DNA of 64,000 bases from Candidatus Saccharimonadota bacterium. GTDB lineage: Bacteria; Patescibacteriota; Saccharimonadia; Saccharimonadales; UBA4665. Both the position numbers and the translations under genes were made by a program. The stretch is from the NCBI GenBank assembly GCA_024635495.1, contig JAGXIT010000004.1:310001-374000 (forward strand), read 5' to 3'. Positions 38,855 to 61,442 of this stretch are shown piece after piece (the first letter of the stretch is position 1; each line of letters opens with the position of its first letter). Below the pieces are notes generated by a model. It searched no databases and was not told where the DNA came from. It saw only the letters and a program-made list of their open reading frames with translations.

Positions 38855-39080
38855 TCCGATATTCCTTCTGTATACCGCCATACGCCGCTAGTTTGTATGT
38901 AGTGAGCGTAATGGTGGTGTTTGCTATACATGATGTGTTTATTTTGTAACCCTCATTAGCAACGTTACACCCCCTTCTCAGCTTTTTCTGTGAGATACAT
39001 TACAAACAACACTTTTAACGGGGGTAAAAATGCTTATGTGATATTGACTACTTTTTTATATTGTTTTAGAATAATTAATT

Positions 39081-59068: not shown

Positions 59069-59794
59069 CTAGATAAACCGCGTGAGAATAAACATGAGAG
59101 CAACGCCGGTCACAGTAAGGCTAACTGTCTTGTACGAAGCGGCGTGGCCGTGAGCCTGCGGCAAGATGTTACTAGCGGCGATATAGAGAAGGATTCCCGA
59201 GAAAAGTCCGAGATAGAATACCAGCGCCGTTTGTGAAAACGTGAATACCAAGCTCGTCAAACCACCGATAACGGGCATAATGATGACGACAGACATAAAT
59301 TTCTTAATATGGTCAACTTTGTTTTTGTGCAGGAGCATGAAGTTCGCAGTGTCAAAGCCATCGGCAAATCGGTGACCGATTACGGCGAGCGCTACTGCTG
59401 CACCGACGGCTGAACTTATCTGAAAACCAACACCAATGCTGAGGCCGTCAAAAAAACTATGAAGTGCCAGCGCAACTGCGCGAGCGAAGCCAAGCTTCGG
59501 GTGAGTGTGCGGAGTATAATCCGCCTCGGCATGTTCGTGTACTAAGATGAGTTTCTCGATGATATGGAAAGCCAAAAACCCAACAGTGAACATAAGCATC
59601 GGCCATACAAAATCTAATCCCTGGCTCTCGGCGCCCTCAAACAATTCGGGTAGTAAATCGAAGGCCACAAGCCCGAGCACTAGCCCTGCCGTCAGAGCCA
59701 TCGCCAGGTGTAATTGCTTGCGGCTGCGCAGTGCCGTGTAGCCCCCCAAGAGCGCGGCGAATGAGGCAATTACAGTGAGAATGAATACTAACAT
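59069..59794 (-). CDS. ZIP-family metal transporter
   Basis: ALALHSFFDGLSIGVGFQ...VIGHRFADGFDTANFML. Confidence 0.88.
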   Translation of the reverse strand: MLVFILTVIASFAALLGGYTALRSRKQLHLAMALTAGLVLGLVAFDLLPELFEGAESQGLDFVWPMLMFTVGFLAFHIIEKLILVHEHAEADYTPHTHPKLGFARAVALALHSFFDGLSIGVGFQISSAVGAAVALAVIGHRFADGFDTANFMLLHKNKVDHIKKFMSVVIIMPVIGGLTSLVFTFSQTALVFYLGLFSGILLYIAASNILPQAHGHAASYKTVSLTVTGVALMFILTRFI

Positions 59795-59859: not shown

Positions 59860-60273
59860 ATGTCATCACAAACTATCTTCGAAAAATCATTGAAAGACGT
59901 ACACCAGAGCATCACCAAGCCACGGCAAGCGGTCTTTGATGCCCTACAGCACCACCAGAGCCTAACGACCGCACAGCTGATTGCAGCTTGCCCAGACGTA
60001 GATAGAGCAAGCGTCTACCGCACGGTTGATCTATTTGAGACGCTTGATATCGTGAAACGGATTCCGAATGGCTGGAAATATCGACTTGAGCTCGGAGAAG
60101 CATTTCTCGAGCATCACCACCACGCCACCTGTCGAATCTGTGGTGCCAGCATTGCCCTCCCCGAGAACCCGGCGCTCGAAAAAACCATGCAAGAACTCGC
60201 AGCTCGGCGCAGTTTCACCCTCGAATCACACCAGATAGAACTCGTCGGCATCTGCGAAGCCTGCACAAGCTAG
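59860..60273 (+). CDS. Fur-family metalloregulator (Fur/Zur/PerR)
   Basis: ADVDRASVYRTVDLFETLDIV-type HTH; HHHHATCRICG; GICEACTS. Confidence 0.92.
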   Translation: MSSQTIFEKSLKDVHQSITKPRQAVFDALQHHQSLTTAQLIAACPDVDRASVYRTVDLFETLDIVKRIPNGWKYRLELGEAFLEHHHHATCRICGASIALPENPALEKTMQELAARRSFTLESHQIELVGICEACTS

Positions 60274-60340
60274 TTCTCGGCCCGAAGCAGTAAGACAACA
60301 CATCCATGAAACCTAGGGATACATAACGACCGCCGGAGGC

Positions 60341-60619
60341 AACGGCGCATCGCGCCGGTTTTAGGGCGGGTAGAGAGTTTTTTGAATTCAGTTCAAAAAA
60401 CAAGGAGGGTAAGACCCTCCTTGGATATACTTGCTTTTAAAAAGTAGTAGACTTTTTAAAAGGGCCGGTAATTTCGACCCTTTTCGCGGAAACTATAACT
60501 AATTTCCATATGTATAATAGCGCGAATCACGGAAGTTGTAAGTGAGCAAAATTACTGAAATGTCTTGCTCGCAGGAGTATAATCCCGGTTACGCTGTATG
60601 CATTAATATAGTTGCATAC
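60341..60619. ncRNA. Candidate structured RNA or attenuator region (array of hairpins)
   Basis: Stems at 60341-60360, 60377-60401, 60402-60422, 60434-60462, 60458-60484, 60596-60619; no ORF. Confidence 0.4.
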
Positions 60620-60647
60620 TAACTCTCTTCCTAGGTATGCTATGCTG

Positions 60648-61442
60648 ATGAGTCTCGACTATTTTGCACATGGTATGCTCGGCAGACCATACCGATTACA
60701 TGTCACGCATCACGGTAAACGTGATGGACCGGTTGTCATACTCCTGCATGGCATCGCAGCCAGTAGCGAGGACTGGAATAAGGTGCTACCTCATCTCGAA
60801 AAAACTCATCATTGCATCACCATTGACCTGCTCGGTTTCGGTAAATCGCCAAAACCAGGCTGGGCTGAGTACACCATGCAAGACCACCTGCGTTCGATGT
60901 ACCACACTATAAATAAGCTTCGCCTCAAGCGAGATTTTGTACTCGTCGGTCACTCGCTCGGCGCACTATTAGCGGCCCGCTACGCCACGCAACACGAGCA
61001 AAATATCAATCGACTTTTACTGCTCAGTCCACCCGTCTACCCACCGCTCGATAGTATATCGAGACGCGGGGTACGCCAATTGACGGGTATACTACTCAAC
61101 ATCTATAAGCTCTTGCGGACGAATCCTCGGAGTACACCAGAGACCTTCCGAGCACTGACCTACGTCGCGCCAATCCCGCGCGCCGTCGTTAAACACCCAG
61201 ATATTTGGGTACCATTTATGCGCTCACTTAAGGAATGTATAGAGAAACAAACCATCCTTGGGGATGTCGCGCAGCTAACGCTTCCGATTGATGTCTTCCA
61301 CGGCACGCTTGATCAGGTTGTACTTGGGCCAAACGTAGAGCTCCTGGCGAAGGTAAATGTGCATATTCATGAATTTATGGGTACCCATGAGCTGACAGCT
61401 CGATATGGCAAGCTTGTCGCCCGCACGTTGACCGAAGAGTAA
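60648..61442 (+). CDS. Alpha/beta hydrolase
   Basis: VILLHGIAASSEDWNKVLPHL; LVGHSLGALLAARYA. Confidence 0.92.
   Translation: MSLDYFAHGMLGRPYRLHVTHHGKRDGPVVILLHGIAASSEDWNKVLPHLEKTHHCITIDLLGFGKSPKPGWAEYTMQDHLRSMYHTINKLRLKRDFVLVGHSLGALLAARYATQHEQNINRLLLLSPPVYPPLDSISRRGVRQLTGILLNIYKLLRTNPRSTPETFRALTYVAPIPRAVVKHPDIWVPFMRSLKECIEKQTILGDVAQLTLPIDVFHGTLDQVVLGPNVELLAKVNVHIHEFMGTHELTARYGKLVARTLTEE

Follow-up and report, generated by a model that had tools for sequence, protein, structure and literature searches.

A hairpin array between fur and a hydrolase gene in a Saccharibacteria genome: a copy of an interspersed repeat beside a predicted CRP/FNR-activated small-RNA gene

A run of hairpins between fur and a hydrolase gene

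The window (the whole 64-kb stretch of DNA that was analysed) belongs to a genome of 0.82 Mb in 5 contigs, called here G000. It carries a ZIP-family metal transporter gene (59069..59794, minus strand, Pfam PF02535), oriented divergently from a Fur-family regulator gene, fur (59860..60273, plus strand, PF01475), and further on an alpha/beta hydrolase gene (60642..61442, plus strand, PF00561) with orthologues in relatives. The hairpins lie in the gap between fur and the hydrolase gene, two genes that have remained adjacent in four genus-mates. The genus sample consisted of seven genomes (G000-G006), a scan of genome contigs having yielded no additional member; the genus-mates are Candidatus Saccharibacteria MAGs (for example DOLJORAL78_51_182), and MAGs form the majority of the genomes compared.

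An earlier note, made from the letters of the sequence, had described a single dense hairpin array in this gap, and all the stems that it listed are present: hairpin 1 (60341-60348/60352-60360, with one bulge), hairpin 2 (60377-60401, 10 bp), hairpin 3 (60401-60423, 10 bp including an outer C-G pair), hairpin 4 (60434-60462, 12 bp), hairpin 5 (60458-60464/60478-60484) and hairpin 6 (60596-60602/60613-60619). A further stem, at 60488-60507, had been overlooked. The cluster is far above chance, as the 395-nt gap contains three perfect stems of at least 9 bp, compared with a mean of 0.01 and a maximum of 1 in 300 dinucleotide shuffles. No comparable cluster was found elsewhere in the 64-kb window, which in total holds 9 stems of at least 8 bp (7-9 in shuffles). 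RNA folding of the gap gave z-scores of -3.9 for the plus strand and -5.9 for the minus strand relative to shuffles. The impression that no known RNA class is involved was borne out: in an Rfam scan of the window no family reached its gathering threshold, and permissive scans returned sub-threshold matches only.

Comparison with the gaps of four relatives divides the array in two. Matches to hairpins 1-3 occur at other sites in the genus, and these three constitute an element that we call E1, while hairpin 5 and the overlooked stem are common to all five gaps and constitute a second element, E2. The run of hairpins thus consists of two adjoining elements, one copy of a dispersed repeat and a predicted small-RNA gene. 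The structures of the array are selected, as the earlier note supposed, but they do not form one RNA, since hairpins 1-3 and hairpins 4-5 belong to separate elements. Hairpin 6 (60596..60619, plus strand) lies in the hydrolase leader, and no counterpart of it was found in relatives.

E1, a genus-specific repeat of three hairpins

The E1 copy of the locus occupies 60329..60424 on the plus strand. It comprises hairpin A (hairpin 1, 60341..60360), hairpin B (hairpin 2, 60377..60401), with the conserved tip GAATTCAnTTC, and hairpin C (hairpin 3, 60401..60423), all on the plus strand. In the consensus, ATGAGCRAAGCGAAC is followed by hairpin A, by CTTTAGGG with a G-rich linker, by hairpin B (GAATTCAnTTC) and by hairpin C, which ends in CTCCT. 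A covariance model, R1, was built from 12 copies (one training sequence, G003_C38c, was one base short, which left the searches unaffected); it recovers the copy of the locus with an E-value of 9e-8 in its own genome, E-values here resting on short calibrations. R1 matches show that E1, about 100 nt long, is interspersed, with 72 copies in six of the seven genus genomes: 5 (G000), 16, 13, 27, 4 and 7, and none in G006. The same search found no copy in 53 genomes of other genera.

The three hairpins are maintained as structures. In the alignment of 68 copies, 92% of cells pair over 67 distinct copies, and 17 of the 19 pairs show double changes; there are 160 such cells, against 44 after shuffling, and slid controls were all far lower. 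Covariation, which the earlier note had proposed to look for, was thus found in E1, as it was in the E2 terminator (below). G-T wobbles outnumber A-C mismatches (64 versus 26), which suggests that the strand as listed is the folding strand; kinship among the copies and the preference of the model for G-U make this a suggestive result only. The stem that had been noted for its SD-like and anti-SD-like arms is hairpin C; the arms are there, but they vary freely, with compensation, and hold no fixed SD.

E1 sites are intergenic, in both orientations, beside differing genes, and single or in tandem; in G003 a tandem array of four adjoins the tmRNA gene (locus L113, 1501-1919). Genes that point into the 3' end of E1 have their stop codon at most 10 nt away in 16 of 23 cases, compared with 3 of 30 for the 5' end (hand tally). 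A role as a directional cis element or terminator was rejected, same-strand flanking gene pairs being split 22 versus 19 by E1 orientation (hand tally). Two copies, in L135 (1575-1690, 1740-1860) and L117 (G005:C26), contain a second structured sequence (GGTGAGG..GCAAGGGAATnTTCCGGTGnAAC..) inside hairpin C; in L135 this GGTGAGG..GCAAGGGAATnTTCCGGTGnAAC sequence interrupts a partial tRNA-like copy just upstream of an intact tRNA. In G001, E1 copies (L088, L105) are embedded in another repeat, ..GTCATCTTGAGC..GAGCGAAGC....GAAAGATC.., which resembles the E1 5' end.

E1 is missing from the fur-hydrolase gap of G004, G005 and G006, where the locus is kept, and G001 has a copy at the matching position. 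Many copies at unrelated sites, together with empty sites in relatives, are what a mobile repeat leaves behind. Judged by these empty sites, E1 is dispensable for the fur/hydrolase locus. Direct repeats flank 6 of the 13 copies in G002 (31, 36, 44, 59, 97 and 111 bp), and none are clear in the other genomes. Gene 3' ends or terminators make up these repeats, whose second copy starts no more than about 7 nt from hairpin C. The G002 flanks look like the traces of recent E1 insertion with long duplications; local tandem duplication or MAG assembly effects may also have produced them.

Mobilization of E1 as a REP-type element by RAYT proteins is possible, if unlikely. It would account for short interspersed palindromes in a genus in which all seven genomes encode RAYT-type Y1 transposases. 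However, no convincing E1 match was found beside the 13 genus RAYT loci examined, G006 has RAYT and no E1, and the small REP layout is absent from E1. The G000 RAYT gene (L160, G000:C1:60700-66900) sits between two copies of TCTATGGGTCCGTCCT, probably the RAYT's own repeat and unrelated to E1. Reverse transcription, in the manner of SINEs, was rejected as the mover, as PF00078 is absent from G000 and from G002-G006. Alternatively, E1 might be a mobile element, non-autonomous and active in the recent past, whose insertions fall beside stop codons and terminators and leave unusually long, variable target duplications of 31-111 bp, a proposal that we regard as rather doubtful. If it were true, E1 would move without a genomic reverse transcriptase and without a linked transposase, that is, in an undescribed way.

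E2, a predicted small-RNA gene and its promoter

E2 is predicted to encode an RNA of about 52 nt (60458..60509, minus strand, start uncertain by about 2 nt), made of a 5' hairpin, GGAAA...UUUCC (60488..60507), which is the stem overlooked earlier, and an intrinsic terminator, which is hairpin 5 (60458..60484, symmetric). Its gene is convergent with fur, and the ZIP gene lies downstream on the same strand. Upstream of the predicted start are a -10 box, TATTAT (60514..60519), and, beyond a 17-nt spacer, a -35 box, CTTACA (60537..60542), both on the minus strand. The -35 region is overlapped by a CRP/FNR-type palindrome, AGTGA-N6-TTACT (60541..60556), which is centred at -41.5 both for E2 (minus) and for the hydrolase gene (plus). 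A promoter predicted for the latter, CTGAAA-17-TATAAT, covers 60555..60583 on the plus strand. Both TATAAT boxes pointed out in the earlier note, at 60513 and 60578, are in the sequence; the one at 60578 is a plausible -10 box for the hydrolase gene, and the one at 60513 overlaps the complement of the E2 -10 box.

A model built from five E2 copies (R2) found E2 once per genome in six genus genomes, including G002, which had been held out. G003 has no E2, its fur contig ending at that point. In G002, fur has been lost and the hydrolase gene is 4 kb away, and E2 is retained. A search of 93 family genomes with R2 added two copies, in G068 and G069 (genus g9). The ZIP-fur-E2 order is kept in G068; in G069 neither ZIP nor fur adjoins E2, and the hydrolase gene is not adjacent either. 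Taken at the level of gene order, these genomes show E2 to be independent of fur, of E1 and of the hydrolase gene.

First, the promoter is conserved. On the minus strand of all six genus copies, a -35 box, 17 nt, a -10 box (TANNNT) and the hairpin follow one another, and a palindrome [AT]GTRA-N6-TYAC[AT] is centred exactly at -41.5. G068 and G069, which were found by their hairpins alone, the promoter bases being outside the search model, carry AGTAAGAATTATTACT and TGTAAAAATTATTACT at the position of the palindrome, so that GTRA-N6-TYAC at -41.5 and a 17-nt spacer are present in 8 of 8 genomes from two genera. As far as sequence goes, the geometry of the E2 promoter is the class II CRP/FNR (NtcA-type) layout. 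Second, the RNA structure is conserved. In the terminator, double changes are observed at 5 of the 10 pairs over eight genomes, with 9 double-change cells against 2.9 after shuffling, more than in any slid control, in a comparison of eight close copies. The stem of the 5' hairpin is nearly invariant; its support is therefore conservation and not covariation. Fold energy picks no strand for E2 except in G000, and wobble counts are near balance (5 versus 3); the strand of E2 is set, among these sequence features, by the promoter and not by fold energy. E2 thus has its own promoter and intrinsic terminator, is intergenic and is conserved with covariation, as expected of a small-RNA gene, the RNA itself being predicted.

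A third model, R3, which includes the promoter, was searched in 393 genomes of the order and added three convincing distant copies, in G111, G105 and G139 (family f24). These share a hairpin, GGAAGTGTGAGGCTTCC (L272, L273, L275), across three genera and two families, and their terminators are unrelated. Their neighbours are ZIP (G111), ZIP and the hydrolase gene (G105), and Fur (G139). The palindrome is exactly at -41.5 with a 17-nt spacer in G111, shifted by one and imperfect in G139, and weak in G105. The distant copies may be members of the E2 gene family, or parallel genes at one locus; the weakest R3 matches, G289 and G242, look like chance.

CRP-type HTH proteins (HTH_Crp_2) are encoded in 7 of 7 genus genomes; one of them is the CRP-like protein at G000:C1:251311, which has two paralogues. 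The seven genomes contain 26 instances of the full class II promoter pattern, compared with 4 of the reversed control, and in G006, G003, G001 and G000 the pattern precedes the gene of a conserved basic protein of 44-53 aa (L252, L246, L244 and L242), in which the motif ..RPRS..EL..VVxRFEAKWQRRRR.. was observed. The window contains a second exact match, at 38962-39004 on the minus strand, upstream of a 273-aa ORF. Together with E2, these further promoters of like design make the CRP/FNR regulon of the group mappable from sequence.

Working of the locus and comparison with known systems

We consider it probable that the gap combines an E1 repeat copy with a CRP/FNR-activated minus-strand E2 RNA of about 52 nt, the terminator being shared with fur and the palindrome with the hydrolase gene. 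E1 would have inserted between fur and its neighbour. An activator of the CRP/FNR family would bind the 60541-60556 palindrome at -41.5 and recruit RNA polymerase to the -10 box TATTAT; the transcript would start near 60509, fold its 5' hairpin and end at the 60458-60484 terminator, giving about 52 nt. Because it is symmetric, this terminator could also end the convergent fur mRNA, and in the species of G000 the palindrome would also serve the divergent hydrolase promoter (-10 at 60578). Transcription of E2, the acting CRP/FNR protein and an action of the RNA in trans are what we infer from these features. A small regulatory RNA is the likeliest role of E2 on present evidence; the RNA is predicted to be almost wholly paired, which would leave little seed for pairing in trans. 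Two other readings of E2 were rejected, that of a leaderless small ORF, since sequence inspection showed no conserved reading frames, and that of an operator palindrome with hairpin 1 as its source, since loop lengths are variable.

The main rival follows from the ZIP gene being the next gene on the E2 strand in most genomes, namely in six genus genomes, G068, G111 and G105, at 40-110 nt where fur does not intervene. E2 would then be an attenuated ZIP 5' leader, in which a CRP-driven transcript mostly stops and sometimes reads through, antisense to fur, into ZIP. The gene order in G002, G111 and G105 in particular means that E2 could be a terminated leader and not a free small RNA. We nevertheless judge this unlikely: fur separates E2 from ZIP in most genomes, G069 and G139 have no ZIP downstream, and inspection revealed no anti-terminator that would compete for pairing with the 5' hairpin.

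It is very unlikely that E2 is only a bidirectional fur terminator followed by a plus-strand hydrolase promoter, with no separate RNA. The hairpin is indeed symmetric and flanked by A/T, but a plus-strand class II -10 box before the hydrolase gene is found in G000 and G005 only (two of six genomes), while all eight genomes keep the minus-strand geometry, and E2 persists in G002 without fur or an adjacent hydrolase gene and in G069 without either. A plus-strand reading of E2 itself was rejected, as fewer genomes fit.

That the whole gap is one attenuator or riboswitch with mutually exclusive hairpins 4 and 5, as the earlier note proposed, is extremely improbable: the right arm of hairpin 4 (60451-60462) and the left arm of hairpin 5 (60458-60464) do share 5 nt, but this is so in only three of six genus genomes (G000, and also G001 and G005), E1 is absent from three relatives and no Rfam family matches. 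Hairpin 4 itself (60434..60462), an A+T hairpin beside the E2 terminator to which no strand was assigned, is retained in G000, G001 and G005, weak in G006 and absent from G002 and G004. Hairpin 5 can form its G-C core without the bases that overlap hairpin 4, and with hairpin 4 missing in two genomes an obligate switch is unlikely.

In conclusion, E2 appears, from its sequence features, to be a previously undescribed small-RNA gene switched on by a CRP/FNR-type activator. A literature search on E1 and E2 themselves found nothing, and full-text searching turned up no publication that brought together small or noncoding RNAs and Saccharibacteria or CPR. As a predicted small-RNA gene E2 is open to testing, and the switch that turns it on can be read from the sequence. 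E1 shows that a structured repeat can still be expanding in a genome that has undergone reduction, and an array of hairpins in a gap of this kind may prove to consist of more than one element.

REP/BIME and other bacterial interspersed palindromic repeats are short, intergenic, palindromic, present in many copies and sometimes in tandem (PMC2817692). E1 resembles them in being short, intergenic, palindromic, multi-copy and at times tandem, and differs from them in its length of about 100 nt, its three hairpins, its lack of linkage to RAYT genes and the direct repeats of 31-111 bp that flank copies in one genome. In the class II promoters of cyanobacterial NtcA, GTAN8TAC is centred near -41.5 (PMC3898017). 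Similarly, E2 has a GTR-N8-YAC dyad at -41.5 and N22 to TAN3T; unlike NtcA, its predicted regulator is an uncharacterised CRP/FNR paralogue. CyaR and FnrS are small RNAs of enterobacteria that are activated by CRP and FNR. Like them, E2, which is known from sequence, is short and intergenic, with an intrinsic terminator and a CRP/FNR-type promoter; unlike them, it would produce an RNA of only about 52 nt, almost fully paired, in a host-dependent lineage of Saccharibacteria.
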